Shown: piece by piece, positions 37,652 through 51,098 of the stretch
Numbering within the stretch: position 1 is the first letter of the stretch
Layout: each line of letters begins with the position of its first letter
Assembly (NCBI RefSeq): GCF_011762095.1
Contig: NZ_JAASQO010000001.1
Span: 124,001-188,000, forward strand
Origin: Parvibaculum indicum
GTDB lineage: Bacteria > Pseudomonadota > Alphaproteobacteria > Parvibaculales > Parvibaculaceae
Length of the DNA stretch: 64,000 bases
Direction: 5' to 3'
The notes under the pieces: generated by a model
Database searches by the model: none
Told to the model about the DNA's origin: nothing
What the model saw: only the letters and a program-made list of their open reading frames with translations
Program-made: the position numbers and the translations under genes

Positions 37652-40033
37652 ATGACGGCAGAAATTTCTGAAACCGGTATCGGCAAGCCAGCGCGCCGGA
37701 AAGAGGATTTCCGGTTCATCACCGGGAACGGCCACTACACCGACGACATCAACCGCCCGCATCAGACGCATGCGAGCTTCCTCAGATCGCCCCACGCCCA
37801 CGCCAGGATCCGCTCCATCGACATCAGCGATGCCGAAAAGGCGGAAGGCGTTCTCGCCGTCTTCACCGGACAGGATATCGCCAGGGACGAACTGGGCGGC
37901 CTGATCTGCGGCTGGACGGTCACCTCGAAAGACGGCGAGCCGATGAAGGTCGGCCCGCATCCGGTTCTCGCCCTCGATACCGTGCGCTATGTCGGCGATC
38001 ACGTCGCCATGGTCGTCGCCGAGACGCGCGAGCAGGCCGAAGCCGCCGCCGAACTCATCGATGTGGATTACGACGCCCTGCCCGCCGCGGTTTCTCTCGC
38101 GAGCTGCCAGAACGGCGACGCCCCGCAGGTCCACCCGGAAGCGCCGCGCAATACCTGTTTCGAATGGGAACTTGGCAACAAGGCCGAAACCGAAGCCGCC
38201 TTCTCGAAGGCCGCCCGTATCGTCTCGCTCGATCTGGAAAACAATCGCCTGATCCCCAATGCGATGGAACCGCGCGCGGCCATCGGCGAGTTCGACAAGG
38301 GAACCGGGGATTACACGCTCTGGACCACGAGCCAGAACCCGCATGTCGCCCGTCTCGTCCTCTCCGCCTTCGTCGGCGTCGCGCCGGAACACAAGCTGCG
38401 CGTCATCGCACCGGATGTGGGCGGCGGGTTCGGCTCCAAGATCTTCATCTATTCGGAAGAAACTGCCTGCGCCTGGGCGTCGGCCAAGGTCGGCCGCCCG
38501 ATCAAATGGACGGGCAATCGCTCCGAAGCCTTCCTATCGGATGCGCATGGGCGCGACCATCTGAGCAAGGCGGAACTGGCGCTCGACGCCGACGGCAAGA
38601 TGCTGGGCCTGCGGGTGAAGACGGTGGCCAATCTCGGCGCCTATCTCTCCACCTTCTCCGCCGCCGTGCCGACCTATCTCTACGGCACGTTGCTTTCCGG
38701 CCAGTACGATCTGCCGGCCATCCATGTCGAGGTGGACGGCGTTTATACGCATACCGCGCCCGTGGACGCCTATCGCGGCGCGGGCCGCCCGGAAGCGACC
38801 TACCTCATCGAACGGATCGCGGAAACGGCGGCGCGTGAAATCGGCATGGACCCGGCCGAGTTCCGCCGGAAGAATTTCGTGCGCGAATTCCCGCACCAGA
38901 CGCCGGTCATCATGAATTACGACATCGGCAATTACGAAGCCTCGCTCGACGCGGCGCTGGAAGCCATCGACTACAAGGGTTTTCCGGCCCGCCGCGCGGA
39001 AGCGGAATCCCGGGGCAAGCTGCGCGGCATCGGCTTCTCGACCTATATCGAGGCCTGCGGCCTTGCACCCTCCGCCGCCGTCGGCTCTCTCGGCGCAGGC
39101 GTGGGGCTTTGGGAATCCGCCGAAGTCCGCGTCAATCCGACAGGGAATATCGACGTGCTGACGGGCTCGCACAGCCATGGCCAGGGCCATGAAACGACTT
39201 TCGCACAGCTCGTTTCCTCGCGCCTCGGCGTGCCGCTGGACGATGTGGAGATCGTGCATGGCGACACGGACAAGGTGCAGTTCGGTATGGGGACTTACGG
39301 CTCGCGCTCCGGCGCGGTCGGCATGAGCGCCATTTCCCGCGCGCTCGACAAGATCGAGGCCAAGGCGAAGAAGATCGCCGCGCACCTCATGGAAGCCGCC
39401 GTCGAGGATATCGTCTTCGAGAACGGCACCTTCACCGTACAGGGCACGGACAAGAGCATGGCCTGGGCGGAACTCTCGCTCGCCGCCTATACCGCGCATG
39501 GTTTCGCCGGCAGCGACCTCGAACCGGGCCTCAAGGAAGGCGCGTTCTACGATCCGACCAACTTCACCTTCCCCGCGGGCTGCCATATCTGCGAAGTCGA
39601 GATCGACCCGGACACCGGCGTCACGAAGATTGCGAATTTCGTGGCCGTCGACGATTTCGGCACCATCATCAATCCCATGATCGTCGAGGGACAGGTGCAT
39701 GGCGGCATCGCGCAGGGCGTCGGCCAGGCGCTGCTGGAACATGGCGTCTACGACCCGGAATCCGGCCAGCTCGTGACAGGCTCCTATATGGATTACTGCA
39801 TGCCGCGCGCCGACGACCTGCCGAGCTTCCGGCTCGGTTTCACCACGACTGAATGCCCCTCGAACCCGCTCGGCATGAAAGGCTGCGGCGAGGCAGGCGC
39901 CATCGCCTCCCCGCCCGCCATCATCAACGCCGTGACGGATGCCCTCAACATTCGCGAAATCGCCATGCCGGCAACGCCGGCGCGTGTCTGGGCCGCGCTG
40001 CAAGCCAGGCAGCCGCGCGCAGCCGCCGAATAA
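37652..40033 (+). CDS. coxL: Form II aerobic CO dehydrogenase-like large (molybdenum) subunit
   Basis: A 793-residue molybdopterin-cytosine-dinucleotide enzyme subunit. The active-site loop is AYRGAGR (residues 373-379), the marker of form II (putative) CODH; form I enzymes have AYxCSFR with the Cu-bound Cys, which is missing here. The conserved Glu is in '[18 protein letters not shown]', and the cofactor motif '[19 protein letters not shown]' is clear. True CO oxidation by form II enzymes is unsettled; other hydroxylations of small substrates are possible. Confidence 0.93.
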
Positions 40034-40044
40034 GGAGACACCCG

Positions 40045-40842
40045 ATGTATCAGTTCAACTATCACCGCCCGAAGACGCTGGACGAAGCCGTCAAGGCGCT
40101 TGCCGGGGCGGACGATCCCAAGCTCCTGGCCGGCGGGCAGACCCTTATCCCCACGCTGAAGCAGCGGCTTGCCATGCCGAGCGACCTCGTCGATATCGGC
40201 TCGCTGACGGACCTGCGTTACATCAAGGCCGAAGGCGATGCGCTGACCATCGGTGCCGGCACGAAACATGCCGATGTCGCAGCCTCCGCCGATGTCATGA
40301 CGCACAATCCCGCGCTCGCGAGACTGGCCGACAATATCGGCGATCCCGCCGTCCGTCATATGGGCACACTGGGCGGCTCCATCGCCAATAACGATCCTGC
40401 CGCCGATTATCCCGGGGCCTGCCTCGGACTCGACGCCAAGATCCACACCACCAAGCGGCTGATCGAGGCGGACGAGTTCTTCACCGGCATGTTCGAAACC
40501 GCGCTCGAAGACGACGAAATCATCAAGGAAGTGACCTTTCCGCATCCGGAAAAGGCGGCCTACATGAAGTTCGCCAACCCGGCCTCGCGCTACGCCATGG
40601 TGGGGGTTTTCGTGTCCAAAGGCCCGTGGGGCATTCGCGTCGCCGTGACGGGCGCCGGTCAGGACGGCGTCTTCCGTGCCAGCGAGATGGAAGCGGCGCT
40701 GGAAAAAAACTGGTCCCCGGACGCCGTCGCCAACGTCAAGATATCCCCGGACGGACTCAACACTGATATGCATGGTAGTGCCGAATATCGGGCACACCTC
40801 ATCACCGTGATGGCCAAACGGGCGGTCGAGGCAGCCGGATAA
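40045..40842 (+). CDS. coxM: CODH-like medium subunit, FAD-binding
   Basis: A 265-residue molybdopterin-dehydrogenase FAD domain protein. The isoalloxazine/diphosphate motifs are 'LAGGQTLIPTLKQRLA' and 'HMGTLGGSIANNDPAADY'. It receives electrons from CoxS. ATG 40045 follows AGGAG. The order S-L-M with 11 bases between L and M matches form II operons rather than the M-S-L order of form I. Confidence 0.93.
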   Translation: MYQFNYHRPKTLDEAVKALAGADDPKLLAGGQTLIPTLKQRLAMPSDLVDIGSLTDLRYIKAEGDALTIGAGTKHADVAASADVMTHNPALARLADNIGDPAVRHMGTLGGSIANNDPAADYPGACLGLDAKIHTTKRLIEADEFFTGMFETALEDDEIIKEVTFPHPEKAAYMKFANPASRYAMVGVFVSKGPWGIRVAVTGAGQDGVFRASEMEAALEKNWSPDAVANVKISPDGLNTDMHGSAEYRAHLITVMAKRAVEAAG

Positions 40843-40884
40843 GCGGCGTTTCGGCTTTTGGTTCCCGACCGGTAGACTGAGTTC

Positions 40885-41796
40885 ATGACCCTGCCTTCTT
40901 CCATCGACGAGACAGTCGATCTGCTGGCGCGCGGCAGCTATGTCGCCGACCGCTCGCTGTCGACCGTTGTTTTTCTCGCCCTGAAAATGGGCCGTCCGCT
41001 GCTGCTGGAAGGCGAAGCGGGCGTCGGCAAGACCGAGATCGCCAAAGTCCTCGCACAGGCGCTCGGCCGCCGCCTCATCCGCCTGCAATGCTATGAGGGG
41101 CTCGACACCGCCGCCGCCGTCTATGAGTGGAACTATCAGGCGCAGATGATCGAGATCCGGCTGGCCGAAGCGGAAGGCGTGGAAACGCGCGACGAACTGG
41201 GCAAGGACATCTTCTCCGAGCGCTTCCTCATCCGCCGTCCGCTGTTGCAGGCGCTGGAACCGGCGGTGGAAGGCCCGCCCGTGCTGCTGATCGACGAGCT
41301 GGACCGGACGGACGAACCCTTCGAGGCCTATCTGCTGGAAGTGCTTTCGGATTTTCAGGTGACGGTGCCCGAGATCGGCACCATCCATGCGGATAATCCG
41401 CCCATCGTCATCGTGACCTCCAACCGGACGCGCGAAATCCATGACGCGCTGAAACGGCGCTGCCTCTATCACTGGGTTGACTATCCGAACGCCGAACGGG
41501 AACTGGAAATCCTGAAGCTGAAAGCGCCGCATGCACCCGAAGAGCTGTCGCAGCAGGTGGTCGCCTTCGTGCAGCAGCTCCGGAAAATGGACCTCTACAA
41601 GAGCCCTGGCGTGGCGGAAACGCTCGACTGGGCCAACGCGCTGACCCATCTCAATGCGCTCGCGCTCGACGCCAACAATGTCAACGACACGCTCGGCACG
41701 CTGCTGAAATATCAGGACGACATTGCGCGCGTTCAGGGCAGCGAAGCGGCGCGGATTCTCGAGGAGATCCGCATGGCCGCGAGCGCGGCGCAATAG
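40885..41796 (+). CDS. coxD: MoxR-type AAA+ ATPase, CoxD-like
   Basis: A 303-residue AAA+ protein: Walker A 'GEAGVGKTEIAKVLA', Walker B 'LLIDELDRTDEPFEAYLLEV', sensor 1 'VIVTSNRTREI'. CoxD proteins help mature the molybdenum active site of CO dehydrogenases; MoxR proteins usually work with a VWA partner, here the next gene. Nine bases separate the two. Confidence 0.92.
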   Translation: MTLPSSIDETVDLLARGSYVADRSLSTVVFLALKMGRPLLLEGEAGVGKTEIAKVLAQALGRRLIRLQCYEGLDTAAAVYEWNYQAQMIEIRLAEAEGVETRDELGKDIFSERFLIRRPLLQALEPAVEGPPVLLIDELDRTDEPFEAYLLEVLSDFQVTVPEIGTIHADNPPIVIVTSNRTREIHDALKRRCLYHWVDYPNAERELEILKLKAPHAPEELSQQVVAFVQQLRKMDLYKSPGVAETLDWANALTHLNALALDANNVNDTLGTLLKYQDDIARVQGSEAARILEEIRMAASAAQ

Positions 41797-41804
41797 GTCC
41801 CGCC

Positions 41805-42995
41805 ATGGCAGAGCCTCAGCCGGAAGGCCGCCTCGCCGAAAACATCGTCCATTTCGCCCGCGTGCTGCGCCGCGCCGGCATGCCCGCCGGCCCCCGGCAG
41901 GTGATCGAGGCCATCGAAGCGGTGCAGGCCGCAGGGCTGACGCGACGCGAGGATTTCTACTGGACGCTGCATGCGACATTGGTGAAACGGCACGAGCATC
42001 ACGAGCTTTTCGATCAGGCCTTCCACGTCTTCTGGCGCGATCCGAAACTCATCGACCGCATGATGTCGATGATGCTGCCGGAAATCGAAAGCACCGACGA
42101 GACGCGCGAGGAAACGAGCCGCCGCCTCGCCGAAGCTTTGTTCGGCCAGAACGATATGGAGGCGACCGAGGAGCCCGATATCGACGTCGATGCGAGCGAG
42201 ACCTTTTCCGCGCAGGAAGTGCTGCGAACCAAGGATTTCGAGCAGATGTCGGCAGCCGAACTCGCCGAGGCGCGCGCGGCCATTGCAAGGCTGCGCCTGC
42301 CGCTCGACGAAAGCCGGACGCGGCGGACACGCGCGGCGGTACGCGGCCAGCTCGTGGATATGCGCGCCACCATGCGGGCGAGCTTGCGCACCAGCGGCAT
42401 CATTCCGCTGAAGCGGCGCGACTACCGCACACGCCGCCCGCCGCTGGTCGTGCTGTGCGATATTTCCGGCTCCATGTCCGTTTATGCACGGGTTTTCCTG
42501 CATTTCCTGCATGCGCTGACCAATGCCCGGGACCGGGTGCATGTCTTCCTTTTCGGGACGCGGCTGACCAATGTGACGCGCGAACTGCGCCACCGCGACA
42601 TCGACGAGGCCATCGAGCGCGTGACGCAGGCCGTGGACGACTGGGACGGCGGCACACGGATCGGCGAGACGCTGCATCGCTTCAATGTGGACTGGGCGCG
42701 GCGCGTGCTGGGCCAGGGCGCGGTCGTGCTGCTGGTGACGGACGGCCTCGACCGGGAGGCCGGCGACGGCGTGGAACCCGAGATCACGCGGCTGCATCGG
42801 CAGACAAAGCGGCTTATCTGGCTTAATCCCCTCTTGCGCTATGACGGCTTCGAACCGAAATCACTGGGGATCAGGGCGCTGCTGCCCCATGTGGACGAGT
42901 TCCGGCCGGTCCATAACATCAAGTCGCTGACGGCGCTGGTGGAAGCGCTTTCCGGCGAGCCGGACCGGGCGAAAACAGGAAAGAAAGCGGCATGA
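41805..42995 (+). CDS. coxE: VWA-domain protein, CoxE-like
   Basis: A 396-residue protein. The C-terminal von Willebrand A domain has a complete MIDAS motif 'LCDISGSMSVYARVF' (DxSxS) with 'VTDGLDREAGDG' as the later Asp. The N-terminal half is helical. Partner of the MoxR ATPase; the pair probably inserts or remodels the cofactor site of the CODH-like enzyme. Its stop overlaps the next start (ATGA). Confidence 0.9.
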   Translation: MAEPQPEGRLAENIVHFARVLRRAGMPAGPRQVIEAIEAVQAAGLTRREDFYWTLHATLVKRHEHHELFDQAFHVFWRDPKLIDRMMSMMLPEIESTDETREETSRRLAEALFGQNDMEATEEPDIDVDASETFSAQEVLRTKDFEQMSAAELAEARAAIARLRLPLDESRTRRTRAAVRGQLVDMRATMRASLRTSGIIPLKRRDYRTRRPPLVVLCDISGSMSVYARVFLHFLHALTNARDRVHVFLFGTRLTNVTRELRHRDIDEAIERVTQAVDDWDGGTRIGETLHRFNVDWARRVLGQGAVVLLVTDGLDREAGDGVEPEITRLHRQTKRLIWLNPLLRYDGFEPKSLGIRALLPHVDEFRPVHNIKSLTALVEALSGEPDRAKTGKKAA

Positions 42996-43348
42996 GCGAT
43001 ACCTCGAAAAGCGCGCGCGAAATGGACCACGACAAGGTGCTGGAACAGGCCGCCGCCTGGATGAAGGACGGCCACAAGGTGGCGCTCGCGACCGTGATCG
43101 AGACTTGGGGTTCCGCGCCCCGGCCCGTGGGGAGCCAGCTCGCGATCCGCGACGATGCGACCTTCACGGGGTCGGTTTCCGGCGGCTGTATCGAGGGCGA
43201 TGTGGTGACGCGCGCGCTCGACAAGCTCGACGGCGGAACGGCGGAGATCGTGGAATATGGCGTCTCCGACGCCCGCGCCTGGGAAGTGGGGCTTGCCTGC
43301 GGCGGGCGCATCCGCGTCATGATCGAACCGGTCGAGGGGAACGCATGA
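42992..43348 (+). CDS. XdhC/CoxF-family protein, N-terminal domain as separate gene
   Basis: A 118-residue XdhC_CoxI-type domain: 'VALATVIETWGSAPRPVGSQ', 'FTGSVSGGCIEGDVVTRALD' and 'EVGLACGGRIRVMIEP', with the conserved Cys in GGCIEG. XdhC-type proteins bind and deliver the molybdenum cofactor. The Rossmann part normally fused to it is encoded by the next gene, which begins in this one's stop codon (ATGA), so the pair may act as one protein. Confidence 0.88.
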   Translation: MSDTSKSAREMDHDKVLEQAAAWMKDGHKVALATVIETWGSAPRPVGSQLAIRDDATFTGSVSGGCIEGDVVTRALDKLDGGTAEIVEYGVSDARAWEVGLACGGRIRVMIEPVEGNA

Positions 43349-44025
43349 AGGCGGAAATCCTCGAGGAGCTGGTCCGCGCCCGCGCCGAAAAGCGCCCCGC
43401 CGTGCTGGCAACCCGCCTGAGCGATGGGGTTGAAAAACTTGTGTATCAAACTGATACACAAACAGAAAACTGGCTTGTTGAAGCGGTTTCTGAAGTGCTG
43501 CGCGCCGACAAGGGACGCGTCCAGGCGGACCCTGACGGGGAAGACTGGTTCCTCAATCCGTTCAACCCGCCGCTGCGGCTCGTCATCCTCGGCGCCGTTC
43601 ACATCGCGCAGCCGCTGGCGAAAATCGCCGAACTCGCCAATTACGACGTGACCGTGATCGACCCGCGCACGGCCTTCGCCTCCGAAGAACGCTTTCCGGG
43701 GGTAACGCTCGTCACCGACTGGCCGGACGAGGCGATGGAGACAATCGACCTCGACACGCGCACGGCGGTCGTCACCCTCACCCACGATCCGAAGCTCGAC
43801 GATCCCGGGCTTCATGCGGCGCTCAAAAGCCCCTGCTTTTATATCGGCGCACTGGGAAGCCGAAAGACGCATGGGAGCCGCGTGGAACGGCTGACGGAGG
43901 CGGGCTTCAGCGACAACGAGATTGCCCGCATTCACGGGCCGGTGGGGCTCAATATCGGTGCGCGGAGCCCGGCGGAAATCGCCATCTCCATCATGGCCGA
44001 GATGACCGAAAGGCTGAGGACATGA
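43345..44025 (+). CDS. XdhC/CoxF-family protein, Rossmann domain
   Basis: A 226-residue protein whose last 150 residues form the XdhC Rossmann domain: 'RLVILGAVHIAQPLAKIAEL', 'DVTVIDPRTAFASEERFPGV' and 'CFYIGALGSRKTHGSRVERL'. It probably binds nucleotide and works with the preceding domain in delivering the Mo cofactor to the large subunit. Residues about 32-50 are encoded by an AT-rich stretch with a perfect palindrome (43439-43461), unlike the rest of the gene. Confidence 0.88.
   Translation: MKAEILEELVRARAEKRPAVLATRLSDGVEKLVYQTDTQTENWLVEAVSEVLRADKGRVQADPDGEDWFLNPFNPPLRLVILGAVHIAQPLAKIAELANYDVTVIDPRTAFASEERFPGVTLVTDWPDEAMETIDLDTRTAVVTLTHDPKLDDPGLHAALKSPCFYIGALGSRKTHGSRVERLTEAGFSDNEIARIHGPVGLNIGARSPAEIAISIMAEMTERLRT
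43439..43461. repeat. Perfect 10-bp inverted repeat inside the XdhC-like gene
   Basis: TTGTGTATCA (43439-43448), spacer AAC, TGATACACAA (43452-43461). It lies in a locally AT-rich part of a GC-rich coding sequence. It may be an operator or a small inserted palindrome; coding is uninterrupted through it. Confidence 0.75.
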
Positions 44026-45656
44026 GGTTCGGCCCGGTTGCGCCGGACGAGGCCGAAGGCGCGGTGCTGGCGCACTCGCAGAAGGTGGGCGGCACCACTT
44101 TCAAGAAGGGCCGGATCCTGAGCGCGGACGATGTGACGGCGCTGAAAGAGGCAGGATTTCAAGAGGTTATCGTGGCGCAATACGGCCCGGACGACGTGCC
44201 GGAGGACGAGGCCGCGCGCGAACTCGCCACAGCGCTCTGCGGCCCCGGCATTCGCGCGGGCGAGTCCTTTACCGGCCGGGCGAACCTCTTTGCCGATGCG
44301 GACGGCGTGCTCGAGATCGACCGGCACCGGCTCGACCATATCAACATCGTGGACGAGGCGGTCACGCTGGCGACGCTGGAGCCGTTTTCGCGGGTGCATG
44401 CGGCGCAGATGGTGGCGACGGTGAAGATCATCCCCTTTGCCGCGCCGCGCGAAAGCCTGCGCCTGGCGCTGAAACGCGCGGGCGAGCCGGGGCCCCTGCT
44501 CCATCTCCACGCTTTCAGGCCGCACAAGGCGGGGCTTGTGGCAACGAGGTTGCCGGATACGAAGGAAAGCGTGCTCGACAAGACGCGGGGCGTGCTGGAC
44601 GAGCGGCTGGCGGGCATGGGCTCCGAAATCGCGCGGGAAATCCGCTGCGGCCATGACGAGCGCGAAGTGAGCGCGGCGGTCAGCGAATTGCTGGCCGACG
44701 GGCTGTCGCCGATCCTCGTTTTCGGCGCCTCGGCGACGGTGGACCGGCGCGACGTGGTGCCGGCCGGGATCGAGCTAAGTGGCGGAGAAATAGAGCATTT
44801 CGGGATGCCGGTGGACCCCGGCAACCTGCTGCTGCTGGCCGCCCACGGACAAACGCCGGTGATCGGCCTGCCGGGCTGCGCGCGCTCGCCGAAGCTCAAC
44901 GGCTTCGACTGGGTATTGGCGCGGATCCTCGCCGGGCTCAGGGTGGAACCGAAGGACATCATGCTGATGGGCGGTGGCGGCCTCTTGAAAGAGATCGCGA
45001 CCCGGCCCCAGCCGCGCGCCGGAAACCCGCGGAAATCCGCCGGTTCCGCGCCGAAAATCGCGGCGATCATCCTCGCGGCGGGCAAATCCACCCGGATGGG
45101 CGCGGTGAATAAGCTCACCGAAGAGGTGGATGGAGACCCGATGGTGGCGCGGGCGGCGGACGCTGCTTTGACAGCCGGGGTGTCGAAAATCGTCGTGGTG
45201 ACCGGGCATGAGCGGGACAAGGTGGAGGCCGCGCTTGGCGCGCGCGATGTGGGGGTGATCGAAAACCCCGAATACGATCAAGGACTTAGCACATCGCTGA
45301 AAGCGGGAATTGCGGCGCTGCCGGATGCGGTGGACGGCGCGGTGGTGCTGCTGGGCGACATGCCGGACGTGACGGCGGCGCATATCGACCGGCTGATCGC
45401 GGCCTTCGACCCGGAGGAAGGCCGCGCCATCTGCGTGCCGACCTGGGAAGGCAAACGCGGCAACCCGGTGCTCTGGGGCGCGGAATATTTTGAAGAAATT
45501 CAAGGTCTTACGGGCGATACCGGCGCAAAACAGCTCTTCGCCACCCATGCCGAGGAGATCGCCGAAGTGCCCATGCCCGACGATGCGACGCTGAAGGATA
45601 TCGACCTCATGACCTCGCTGGAGGCACGCCGCCGGAAAGCCCAAGGGCATGAATGA
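44022..45656 (+). CDS. Molybdopterin-binding / MobA-like nucleotidyltransferase fusion (MocA-like)
   Basis: A 544-residue two-domain protein. Residues 1-340 resemble a MoeA/MoaB-type molybdopterin-binding region ('VGGTTFKKGRILSADDV', 'LPGCARSPKLNGFDWV'). Residues 345-544 form an NTP-transferase domain with 'IILAAGKSTRMGAVNKL' and 'VVLLGDMPDVTAAHIDRLI', as in the MCD synthase MocA. It probably converts Mo-molybdopterin to the cytosine dinucleotide form needed by CoxL. Overlaps the XdhC gene by four bases and ends the operon. Confidence 0.85.
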   Translation: MRFGPVAPDEAEGAVLAHSQKVGGTTFKKGRILSADDVTALKEAGFQEVIVAQYGPDDVPEDEAARELATALCGPGIRAGESFTGRANLFADADGVLEIDRHRLDHINIVDEAVTLATLEPFSRVHAAQMVATVKIIPFAAPRESLRLALKRAGEPGPLLHLHAFRPHKAGLVATRLPDTKESVLDKTRGVLDERLAGMGSEIAREIRCGHDEREVSAAVSELLADGLSPILVFGASATVDRRDVVPAGIELSGGEIEHFGMPVDPGNLLLLAAHGQTPVIGLPGCARSPKLNGFDWVLARILAGLRVEPKDIMLMGGGGLLKEIATRPQPRAGNPRKSAGSAPKIAAIILAAGKSTRMGAVNKLTEEVDGDPMVARAADAALTAGVSKIVVVTGHERDKVEAALGARDVGVIENPEYDQGLSTSLKAGIAALPDAVDGAVVLLGDMPDVTAAHIDRLIAAFDPEEGRAICVPTWEGKRGNPVLWGAEYFEEIQGLTGDTGAKQLFATHAEEIAEVPMPDDATLKDIDLMTSLEARRRKAQGHE

Positions 45657-47838: not shown

Positions 47839-47936
47839 CATCCTTCGAGACGGCGCGAACGCGCCTCCTCAGGATGAGGACCGTATAAATAACGACCTCA
47901 TGCTGAGGAGAGCCGTCAGGCTCGTCTCGAAGCATG
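47839..47936. repeat. Family B repeat, copy 2
   Basis: Begins CATCCTTCGAGACGG and ends CGTCTCGAAGCATG; the inner arms are CCTCCTCAGGATGAGG and CCTCATGCTGAGGAG. Same architecture as 45745-45840. The pair brackets the alpha-glucosidase gene. It ends 26 bases before the halohydrin dehalogenase-like gene. Confidence 0.88.
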
Positions 47937-47961
47937 ACGGACGCAAAACCGGGAGGCCCTC

Positions 47962-48696
47962 ATGGCACGCAGCGTGCTCATCACCGATATCGCCCATTTC
48001 GTCGGCGCGCCCGCGGCCCGGCGGCTGATCGCGGATGGCTGCGCGGTCTACGGCACGGATGCGGGCTTTGGCGACGCCGCCGCCCGCGCCGCCTTCGAGG
48101 AGCGCGCGCCCGGCGTGAAAACGCTTGCCGAAACCGACCCGGAAAAGGCCGTGGCCGAGGTGATCGCCGCGGAAGGCAAGCTCGACGTGCTGGTGAACAA
48201 CGACGCCTTCCCCGCGATCCGCGCGACGATCGACGCCTTCGCGGATGACGACCTCGAAGCGGGCTTCGAGGCGCTGGTCTTCAAATGCTTCCGGGTAACG
48301 CGCGCCGCCGCGAAACACATGAAGGCGCGCAAGGAAGGCCGCATCGTCATCATGTCGTCGGCCGCGCCCATGAACGGGCTCGCCAACTATTCCATGTATT
48401 GCGCGGCGCGCGGCGCGGCGAACGCGCTCGCCGTGGCGCTCTCCAAGGAACTCGCACCCTTCAACGTGTCGGTGAACGCGGTGGCGGCGAACTTCGTGTC
48501 GAACCCCGACTACTTCCCGCCGGAACTGATGGCCGACGAAACGAAGGCCGCGAAGATTTTGAAAAACATTCCGCTGAACCGCCTCGGCGAACCGGAAGAA
48601 GCCGCCGCCCTCGTCTCCTACCTCGCGGGCGAGGAAAGCGGCTTCGTGACGGGTCAGGTGATCGGGTTCTCAGGCGGTTGGGCGAATGCGCGGTGA
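47962..48696 (+). CDS. SDR-fold protein with halohydrin dehalogenase motifs
   Basis: A 244-residue short-chain dehydrogenase fold. The nucleotide-binding Gly-rich motif of SDRs is missing: instead residues 8-15 read TDIAHFVG, which is T-x4-F-x-G, the marker of halohydrin dehalogenases, where the halide site replaces NAD(P). The catalytic triad is Ser133-Tyr146-Arg150 in 'SSAAPMNGLANYSMYCAAR', S-x12-Y-x3-R, with Arg in place of the usual SDR Lys. 'ANFVSNPDYFPPEL' matches the halide-pocket loop seen as NPTYFP in HheA/HheG. Predicted to dehalogenate vicinal haloalcohols to epoxides, without cofactor. A generic SDR oxidoreductase is the alternative. Confidence 0.82.
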   Translation: MARSVLITDIAHFVGAPAARRLIADGCAVYGTDAGFGDAAARAAFEERAPGVKTLAETDPEKAVAEVIAAEGKLDVLVNNDAFPAIRATIDAFADDDLEAGFEALVFKCFRVTRAAAKHMKARKEGRIVIMSSAAPMNGLANYSMYCAARGAANALAVALSKELAPFNVSVNAVAANFVSNPDYFPPELMADETKAAKILKNIPLNRLGEPEEAAALVSYLAGEESGFVTGQVIGFSGGWANAR

Positions 48697-48699
48697 ATA

Positions 48700-49119
48700 C
48701 TAATGCGAAAGAAAATCTGAGATCGTCTCTTTAAGTTTATCTATCTGAGATGGCGTTGTTTCGCACTCCCAAACAACTAAGACGTCCCACCCCATTCGCC
48801 GCAACTCATCTTGCGATCTGGTATCCCGCGCGACATTGCCTTGAAGTTTAGGTATCCAAAAGTCTTGCCTCGTTTTCGGAATTCGGCTTCGCCAACAATT
48901 AGCGTCTTTATGCTGGTGCCAAAAGCAACCGTGAACGAAAATGATTTTCTTAAGCCGAGGAAATACTAGATCCGGAGTACCCGGCAAATCGCGACGATTA
49001 AGTCTATATCTGTAGCCGAGCGAGTGGGCTAATTTCCTGACCACAAGCTCAGGCTTCGTATTCTTAGATCGGACGCGCGCCATTTGCGCGCTTCGCTCAG
49101 GGGTGGTTCGTTGAGTCAA
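48700..49119 (-). CDS. vsr: Very short patch repair endonuclease
   Basis: A 139-residue Vsr nicking enzyme that repairs T:G mismatches from deaminated 5-methylcytosine. Motifs: 'VRSKNTKPELVVRKLAHSLG', 'LPGTPDLVFPRLKKIIFVHG' with the catalytic Asp, 'GCFWHQHKD' with the zinc/active-site His and Cys, 'FWIPKLQGNVARD' and 'VVWECETTP'. Starts with TTG overlapping the stop of the endonuclease gene (TTGA), so it is translationally coupled. Ends three bases from the convergent halohydrin dehalogenase-like gene. Confidence 0.93.
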   Translation of the reverse strand: MTQRTTPERSAQMARVRSKNTKPELVVRKLAHSLGYRYRLNRRDLPGTPDLVFPRLKKIIFVHGCFWHQHKDANCWRSRIPKTRQDFWIPKLQGNVARDTRSQDELRRMGWDVLVVWECETTPSQIDKLKETISDFLSH

Positions 49120-49874
49120 AATTCCCGACGCAATATTTCAGCTTGCGCCTGATAAGTTCTATTTTCGCGATATAAAATTACCCTACTAGGAAGAACAGTT
49201 GCCTGCCAGCTAGGAGGAAGTGCATCAAGAATCAACTTCAACACATCTCGCATCGTTACTGTTTCAGCCGGAATTACAATTTCTAGATTCTGCATATCCG
49301 GATGCCCTTCTCCACGCGCTCCTTCGTATCGAAAAAGATAGGGAAGATAGGACTTCAATTCCTTTGCCACGTCCACGAGGGTGTGCTGGCCAGGAGGCAA
49401 AAATTCAATTGGGCGGTCTATGTCGATTGGATAATCCAAATCGAACTGAGCGGGATGTTGATTTTCGCGATTGTGTCCGGGGTCATTCGAACCAAAACCA
49501 CTAAAATTCCAAGCGGGGCGCAATTCGTAGTGCCGTGAATATTCTTCAATCAACATTGTTTCTATATCAAAGGTCGAAAAGACAAATATCCTTGTTGCCT
49601 TAAACCCGACCTCCTTGGGAAGGAGATTATGCCTATGCTGAATACTATTAAAGTGTCTCGTTAGCCGATTTCGAAACCCTGCCTGAGCATCAGTTTTTCC
49701 TACGTAGACAAGTTCATCACGGAGAAACAATAAGTATGCGCCTTGTGCGCCCTCCGGAATTTTTCCAATGTTCTCCAAGTTCAAAGTTTCTATTTCTAGG
49801 TTAGAAAAGAAGCGCGGCAACTGCTCCCTCATAACGCTAGGAATATCCAGTTCAAACTCGCCGTAGCCCTTCAT
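49116..49874 (-). CDS. GIY-YIG restriction endonuclease, Eco29kI-like
   Basis: A 252-residue type II restriction enzyme candidate. Nuclease core: 'GAYLLF' (45-50) and 'LVYVGKT' (55-61) give the GIY-YIG pair; the arginines in 'GFRNRLTRHF', Glu in 'IETMLIEEY' and Asn in 'RPAWNFSGFGSNDPGHNR' match the Eco29kI pattern. The recognition site may be CCGCGG, as in Eco29kI, but that is inference. The ATG at 49874 lies in the stop codon of the methyltransferase (TGATG). The sequence is AT-richer than its surroundings. Confidence 0.8.
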   Translation of the reverse strand: MKGYGEFELDIPSVMREQLPRFFSNLEIETLNLENIGKIPEGAQGAYLLFLRDELVYVGKTDAQAGFRNRLTRHFNSIQHRHNLLPKEVGFKATRIFVFSTFDIETMLIEEYSRHYELRPAWNFSGFGSNDPGHNRENQHPAQFDLDYPIDIDRPIEFLPPGQHTLVDVAKELKSYLPYLFRYEGARGEGHPDMQNLEIVIPAETVTMRDVLKLILDALPPSWQATVLPSRVILYRENRTYQAQAEILRREF

Positions 49875-51043
49875 CAAGCCGCTCTTTTTCTCATCGACTT
49901 CAAGGAAGAGTTGTTGTTGACGACATCTCCTACAAGATGAGCCACAGCCTCGGAAAGTTCTGTGGGCACAGCATTTCCCAGCTGCCGCATATTCTCAGAC
50001 CACGAACCAACAAATTCATAGTCATCCGGCAAACCTTGAAGCCGCGCCGCTTCGCGAACCGTAAGATAACGAACCTTACCTTTTTCCAAGGCAAGCATGT
50101 TCTCCCCTCCTGGGACACCATGCACGCCTGCCTTCAAAGCCTTCGCAGGCATATCGAGAGGACTACCGGTGTGGCCTGGATAAGACTTTGCTCCCGGCTG
50201 CAACACGTGGTTTGTCCAATCACCGGTTCCGGGTTCACCCAAATCCCAGATAGCATCGCGCACCGTTCGCCAAGGATTCCCATCTGGCACGATCATGCCC
50301 TGCTTCAACCGACGGACCGTCGCAATATCACTTTTCGCCGGTCCGCTCCTCGGCGGCCTAACTCCGTGCCTCTCCCAATATTCACCAGTCACCCATTGAT
50401 CCCAGAGCAAACGCTCGCGAGAATGAGTCGCTTTCAATTTAGGGGGCAAAGCATCCAGATCTCGATGCACACCAACTATGATCACCCGATGCCTTTTTTG
50501 AGCCGCGCCGTAATCCGCCGCATTCACCTTGGTCAAAGCTACACGGTAAAGACTGTTGGAGTGTCTTTTTAAACGTGAAAGATGTTCCCCTCGACTCTCA
50601 CCATCGCGAAGCCGATTTGTCGGATGCGCGAGTGCATTCAGAATCCAATCTAAATAATCAGAAAACGCCACGCGTGTGAGTCCACGCACATTCTCAAAAA
50701 TGAAAGCACGAGGTTCGATCTCACCAACAGCTCTGACAGCCTCAGGCCACATATCGCGATCATCTTCATGCCCACGATGGCGCCCACCAATGGAAAACGG
50801 CTGACACGGGGGGCCACCAGCGACAAGGTCGATATCACCGTATCTCGACCAATCAACAGCGCGCACATCTTCCTGATGAATCGGCCAATCAGCCACATGG
50901 GTGATTTTTCTATCCACATTGTGCTGAACATTCGCTACGGAATGCCGGTCCCACTCGACCATCCGCTGCGAGCGAAAGCCTGCCCGAGATATTCCCAGAG
51001 CAAGCCCGCCACAGCCAGTGAACAACTCGACGCTGGATTTCAC
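49874..51043 (-). CDS. DNA (cytosine-5) methyltransferase of a type II R-M system
   Basis: A 389-residue C5-methyltransferase. Motif I 'VELFTGCGGLALGISRAGF', motif IV 'DLVAGGPPCQPFS' with the nucleophile Cys, motif VI 'FIFENVRGL' (ENV), motif VIII 'AAQKRHRVIIVG', and motifs IX-X 'LTVREAARLQGLPDDYEF' and 'QLGNAVP'. I start it at GTG 51043 because GGAGG lies seven bases upstream; a TTG at 51061 has no ribosome site. The variable region carries target recognition. It protects host DNA from the coupled GIY-YIG endonuclease downstream. Confidence 0.93.
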   Translation of the reverse strand: MKSSVELFTGCGGLALGISRAGFRSQRMVEWDRHSVANVQHNVDRKITHVADWPIHQEDVRAVDWSRYGDIDLVAGGPPCQPFSIGGRHRGHEDDRDMWPEAVRAVGEIEPRAFIFENVRGLTRVAFSDYLDWILNALAHPTNRLRDGESRGEHLSRLKRHSNSLYRVALTKVNAADYGAAQKRHRVIIVGVHRDLDALPPKLKATHSRERLLWDQWVTGEYWERHGVRPPRSGPAKSDIATVRRLKQGMIVPDGNPWRTVRDAIWDLGEPGTGDWTNHVLQPGAKSYPGHTGSPLDMPAKALKAGVHGVPGGENMLALEKGKVRYLTVREAARLQGLPDDYEFVGSWSENMRQLGNAVPTELSEAVAHLVGDVVNNNSSLKSMRKRAA

Positions 51044-51098
51044 CCTTTTGCCTCCATGCAATTGATATGAATTTGGCCGACTCGCAGCGGTATCTCAA

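Follow-up and report, generated by a model that had tools for sequence, protein, structure and literature searches.

Halohydrin dehalogenases (HHDHs) are recognised by two sequence motifs, T-x4-F/Y-x-G and S-x12-Y-x3-R, as defined in a 2016 review (PMC4989007) and in a paper on the first motif (PMC11976700); the latter defines the NAD(P)-dependent SDRs by a Gly-rich T-G/A-x3-G/A-x-G motif and by S-x10-14-Y-x3-K. In the HHDH mechanism as these sources describe it, the serine places the hydroxyl, the tyrosine is the base, the arginine tunes the tyrosine, and the halide departs into a pocket lined by motif 1 (PMC4989007, PMC11976700). Dehalogenation is stated as the natural function in one paper (PMC6434027), and detoxification of natural haloalcohols is presumed in another (PMC11536340). 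HheA3 of Parvibaculum lavamentivorans DS-1 is given as a characterised HHDH in the 2016 review (PMC4989007), beyond which our literature queries on Parvibaculum, HheA3, 6A41 and physiological role returned nothing pertinent.

Here we describe a gene in a 64 kb stretch of P. indicum DNA, the whole of which is referred to as the window. We consider its product a genuine HHDH of the A/C side, whose ortholog in P. lavamentivorans DS-1 is very probably HheA3, and from the sequence comparisons below we put the probability of this reading at about 0.93.

The ORF and its motifs

The gene, assigned to the HHDHs by homology, is an ORF of 244 aa on the forward strand, running from an ATG to a TGA codon (47962..48696), and the sequence GGGAGG (47951..47956, forward strand), 5 bases 5′ of the ATG, is a likely ribosome binding site. 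Motif 1, T-x4-F-x-G, is present as TDIAHFVG at residues 8–15 (47983..48006, forward strand), replacing the SDR Gly-rich motif, which is absent, and motif 2 is present as S133-x12-Y146-x3-R150 (48358..48411, forward strand), corresponding to the catalytic triad. The S-x10-14-Y-x3-K pattern of the SDRs is likewise missing, with Arg150 standing where the SDR lysine is found. At residues 79–82 (48196..48207, forward strand) the protein has NNDA, a position taken by SND in HheC and HheA2 and by NNAG in the FabG 3op4. The loop NPDYFPP at residues 181–187 (48502..48522, forward strand) aligns with NPDYFPP of 6a41, NPTYFPT of HheA2 and NKEYFWP of HheB, and by this alignment probably lines the halide pocket. 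Position 176, a Pro in HheC and HheA2, is Ala in the window protein, which counts against the HHDH reading, although 6a41 also departs from Pro there, with Ser. A preliminary description of this DNA had claimed the ORF, the T-x4-F-x-G segment, the S133/Y146/R150 triad and the absence of the SDR Gly-rich motif, all of which we found in the sequence, and the motif definitions and HheC numbering that it used agree with those in the review and the motif-1 paper (PMC4989007, PMC11976700).

The presence of both motifs goes beyond chance. Across the window's six reading frames, the combined pattern (motif 1 followed by motif 2 after 95–125 residues, with the frame open throughout) has a single match, the 47962–48696 ORF. 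The pattern is present in none of 40 other SDR-like loci taken as controls (E <= 1e-15; 19 from this genome and 21 from DS-1), 37 of which have the SDR pattern and three neither pattern. The window protein was aligned with 15 of its 18 whole orthologs, and T8, F13, G15, S133, Y146 and R150 are invariant in all 16 rows; the three orthologs outside the alignment (L009, L011, L015) likewise carry both motifs.

Homology to the HHDHs predicts a cofactor-independent dehalogenase, in which Ser133 would hold the hydroxyl of a vicinal haloalcohol and Tyr146, its pKa lowered by Arg150, would accept the proton. The alkoxide would then close to form the epoxide, with the halide released to a pocket located where SDRs bind NAD(P) and presumably lined by Thr8, Phe13, Gly15 and the loop around residues 176–187; these pocket residues align with their HHDH counterparts in the sequence alignment. 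Halide, azide, cyanide or nitrite would allow the reaction to run in reverse.

Distribution, neighbourhood and possible native role

An ortholog with 53–64% identity to the window protein is present in 20 of the 36 other Parvibaculaceae genomes; 18 of these are whole, one is in two pieces (G011) and one is truncated (G025). Three genomes (G003, G004 and G007) have only a 36–40% identical HHDH-type relative, and that of G003, at 38% identity, carries an internal stop; the other 13 have SDR-level matches or none, several of them being incomplete assemblies. Among 30 loci of the family, motif 1 is found in 24 and motif 2 with its Arg in 25, and five (L026–L030) are SDR-type or SDR-type fragments. 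L022 and L025, from the same genus, and L066 belong to a second HHDH-like clade, which branches deeply. L022 and L025 are 36–40% identical to the window protein and contain both motifs (SAGPIGGIPNYTAYAAAR), L023 is of similar type with an internal stop, and the clade may warrant a separate subtype.

A tblastn scan of named bacterial genomes yielded 105 related stretches, and 73 of the best 80 carry the two motifs in a single frame with the required spacing; the seven exceptions include L076, with both motifs and a shortened N-terminal half, and L075, a fragment. Outside the Parvibaculaceae, the loci among these best 80 are mainly from Sneathiella, Reyranella and Rhodospirillales. Motif 1 has Trp in place of Phe/Tyr in L071–L073 and Ser in place of Thr in L077 and L093, and such deviants would escape strict motif searches. 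The view that the HHDH family is small, expressed in the preliminary description, is outdated, given the number of two-motif relatives and the 37 plus 26 sequences that the review reports beyond the first five (PMC4989007).

Two of the 24 loci given for neighbourhood comparison (L113 and L116) belong to the second HHDH-like clade and have none of the Parvibaculaceae neighbours, and the other 22, from 21 genomes (G017 is represented twice, by L033 and L112), are syntenic. Their order is a MocA-like gene (21 loci), a GH13-type gene on the opposite strand at the 5′ side of the HHDH gene (20), the HHDH gene (22, one a remnant), a CobB-type gene on the opposite strand at its 3′ side (21), and a glyoxalase-like gene (19), and some of the absences fall at contig ends or past the available DNA (L034, L036, L038 and L068). 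The CobB-type gene is 5.6 kb away in L036 and 1.5 kb away in L037. The Parvibaculaceae neighbours (molybdenum hydroxylase, MocA-like, GH13-type, CobB-type and glyoxalase-like) all score below the NCBIfam cut-offs. The remnant is a truncated HHDH gene at L115:10002-10349, in the syntenic place and with the GH13-type gene lost, and the HHDH gene thus seems to be dispensable there. Recent acquisition of the gene was considered and rejected because of the conserved synteny. A plasmid search with a cut-off of 1e-20 gave no match, and the 28 viral-contig stretches that matched the pattern included no relative, records near the window possibly being excluded from both.

In the window, the HHDH gene and the CobB-type gene are separated by a Vsr/Eco29kI-like/C5-methylase set, an RgpF-like gene and a long ORF for a putative DEAD-box helicase, and a comparison with the 24 loci of the relatives at a threshold of 35% identity found none of these five genes. 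The HHDH gene is whole here, with only 3 bases between its stop codon and the Vsr gene's end. The restriction-modification genes, for Vsr, an Eco29kI-like restriction enzyme (31.6 bits versus a cut-off of 30.8) and a C5 cytosine methylase, occupy a lower-GC stretch on the reverse strand (48700–51061). To the left, a molybdenum hydroxylase cluster (37652–45656, forward strand) has a large subunit scoring 672 bits versus the cut-off of 991 for the CO dehydrogenase model, a 544-aa protein whose C-terminal part is MocA-like, and an XdhC-type maturation factor that is apparently split, as 42992–43345 and 43345–44022 match consecutive parts of one model. A repeat of ~100 bases (47840–47940) ahead of the HHDH gene has 53 match rows in the genome, and some places match on both strands, which is what a palindromic element would give.

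Outside the Parvibaculaceae the surroundings are different. The neighbours in Sneathiella (L056 scanned) are a sulfate permease and purK/purE, and those of the Reyranella type (L104 scanned) are ubiE, an ABC1 kinase, TauE, dfp, a dUTPase and an Opp-type transporter; no neighbours are common to the Parvibaculaceae, Sneathiella and Reyranella types, and no recognisable haloalcohol operon is found in these three lineages. For several lower-GC loci, in which gene calling gave few or no genes, the comparison is by tblastn and covers those of the Parvibaculaceae. Reading the native role from the neighbourhood gave no answer.

In its native role the enzyme may remove haloalcohols of natural origin, the epoxide then passing to epoxide hydrolases encoded at unlinked places in the genome. 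Epoxide hydrolases are represented by two EHN-type matches and one LEH-type match that exceed the cut-off, all on contigs other than that of the HHDH gene. Trp_halogenase has no match in this genome (G000) and three match rows in DS-1, and five of 14 control genomes also match. A different native reaction can be envisaged, in which this HHDH-family protein opens or closes epoxides with another leaving group and dehalogenation is a side activity. This would suit a chromosomal gene in stable neighbourhoods that has no recognisable haloalcohol operon in three lineages, and TIGR01428 (2-haloacid dehalogenase type II) has no match over the cut-off in two genomes, with 15 weak ones below it. However, neighbourhood is weak evidence, the characterised relatives dehalogenate (PMC4989007), and dehalogenation or presumed haloalcohol detoxification is the function given in the literature (PMC11536340, PMC6434027), and we regard a different native reaction as unlikely.

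The HHDH gene is at one conserved chromosomal site across much of a bacterial family, outside a recognisable haloalcohol operon. It is possible, if doubtful, that in Parvibaculaceae, Sneathiella and Reyranella the gene is old, chromosomal and vertically inherited, and that the native substrate of its enzyme is no pollutant and perhaps no halohydrin; if so, this industrial enzyme family would have an as yet undescribed physiological role.

Placement by sequence, tree and fold

Among the best 60 of 516 PDB sequence matches the first is 6a41 (8.7e-58), named ‘dehalogenase’, followed by HheC (1pwx, 1.7e-37), HheA, 8xxb and 7b73, and HheB, with the first FabG (2ph3, 6.3e-25) in 15th place. The 14 entries preceding it comprise 12 with dehalogenase or halohydrin dehalogenase/epoxidase names and two, 8xxb and 7b73, with SDR names, 7b73 being HheD2 by its title. 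A profile of the 16 ortholog rows puts the same 14 entries on top, but then ranks the human SDR DHRS4 (15th) above the HHDH 7wkq (16th) and a FabG (19th) above AbHheG (21st), which speaks against the HHDH reading.

A tree of 42 rows (the window protein, 22 relatives, six HHDH structures and 13 SDRs; HheE, HheF and HheG types not included) splits 29 HHDH-type rows from the 13 SDR rows at 100/99. The tree contains several long branches, and the program issued a warning that such branches come together at L028_SDR. Ten syntenic Parvibaculaceae rows are in a single clade (99/96), and the window protein lies on the A/C side (87/67) and not with HheA2 in particular, in a part of the tree where the order of the A/C branches is not settled; subtype A would be assignable only via the name of the DS-1 ortholog.

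The structure model of the monomer (pLDDT 93.5, pTM 0.91, 41 sequences) has an SDR-type Rossmann fold. Its best fold matches by VIA-align are 6a41 (Z 35.3) and the HheC mutant 5kwe (Z 34.1), and HheC itself (1pwx) has a Z of 33.7; the NADH-bound SDR 5itv reaches Z 32.5 and outranks HheA. Foldseek places HHDHs at ranks 1 to 16 and HheB at 48, below SDRs including FabG chains. The modelled fold agrees with an HHDH but separates it weakly from SDRs, and it is the motifs and the tree that decide.

The 25 NCBIfam models listed of 194 are all SDR-type and none is an HHDH model, each match being far below its cut-off (the best among those listed is 119 bits versus 222), and the Pfam matches are to two general SDR families only, such that automatic annotation would probably label the protein an SDR. 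These matches and the common fold would also suit an NAD(P)-dependent SDR resembling FabG or a glucose dehydrogenase, in which the cofactor motif has merely drifted, but the Gly-rich motif and the YxxxK lysine are missing from the window protein and all 15 aligned orthologs, and the tree and the order of PDB matches place it with HHDHs, making such an origin highly improbable. The preliminary description had set its own refuting condition, a best alignment placing the protein firmly among the NAD(P)-dependent SDRs with a Lys or a restored Gly motif; we ran this check and it did not refute the HHDH reading, since HHDHs are nearest in both sequence and fold and the tree groups the window protein with them. 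The candidate HHDH proposed in the preliminary description is thus supported by both motifs, the PDB match order and the tree.

Gene integrity and comparison with named enzymes

The window HHDH is 61–64% identical to those of G002, G008, G017, G024 and DS-1, whereas the DS-1 HHDH is 89–92% identical to the other four. The rise in dN for the window is greater for the HHDH gene than for four neighbour genes, with synonymous distances near saturation. Faster evolution of the window copy was not borne out by four HHDH relative-rate tests (p 0.27 to 0.69); relative to G033 there are 31 window-only and 22 DS-1-only changes (p 0.27), which is no rate difference. Four of 16 tests on neighbour genes gave p values of 0.035 to 0.09, uncorrected (CobB twice, GloA twice). 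The lower identity simply reflects P. indicum being a more distant species. Decay to a non-functional gene, suggested by the truncated copy in G025, which shows that the gene can be lost, and by the internal stop in the 38% identical gene of G003, is hardly credible, since the window gene is full length and keeps both motifs, has a residue of its own at only seven positions, none catalytic, where the other 15 orthologs all agree, and has a dN/dS of 0.38 versus DS-1, which exceeds the 0.07–0.13 between DS-1 and four other species yet stays below 1.

The HHDH motifs are found in one of 22 SDR-like matches in DS-1 (G014:C1:3151113-3151844, L010). Like the window gene, this gene has both motifs, spans 244 codons from ATG to stop and lies between the GH13-type and CobB-type genes, and its product has 61% identity to the window protein. 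As the only two-motif gene there, with this identity and at the same locus, it is very probably HheA3, and the window protein would be an already known kind of enzyme, with a close relative in the same genus that has very probably been characterised. The ‘dehalogenation enzyme’ 6a41 is 40–41% identical to the window protein and shares with it the fold, the loop NPDYFPP and, at the catalytic serine, SAAP, but has TNVEKFAG as motif 1; it is up to 97% identical to Reyranella-lineage loci, which, unlike the window, have ubiE, ABC1 kinase genes and an Opp-type transporter as neighbours. HheC (1pwx) is similar in triad, motif 1 and fold at 34–35% identity, whereas its loop SEDSPYFYP is longer than NPDYFPP, and the window protein ends in GGWANAR, unlike the C-terminal extension with Trp249 described for HheC (PMC4989007). 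HheA2 (1zmo), HheB (4zd6, 5b12) and HheD2 (7b73) share the fold at about 30–32% identity (HheB as 5b12), but HheB and HheD2, together with 8xxb, differ from the window protein in forming a clade of their own in the 42-row tree (100/99).
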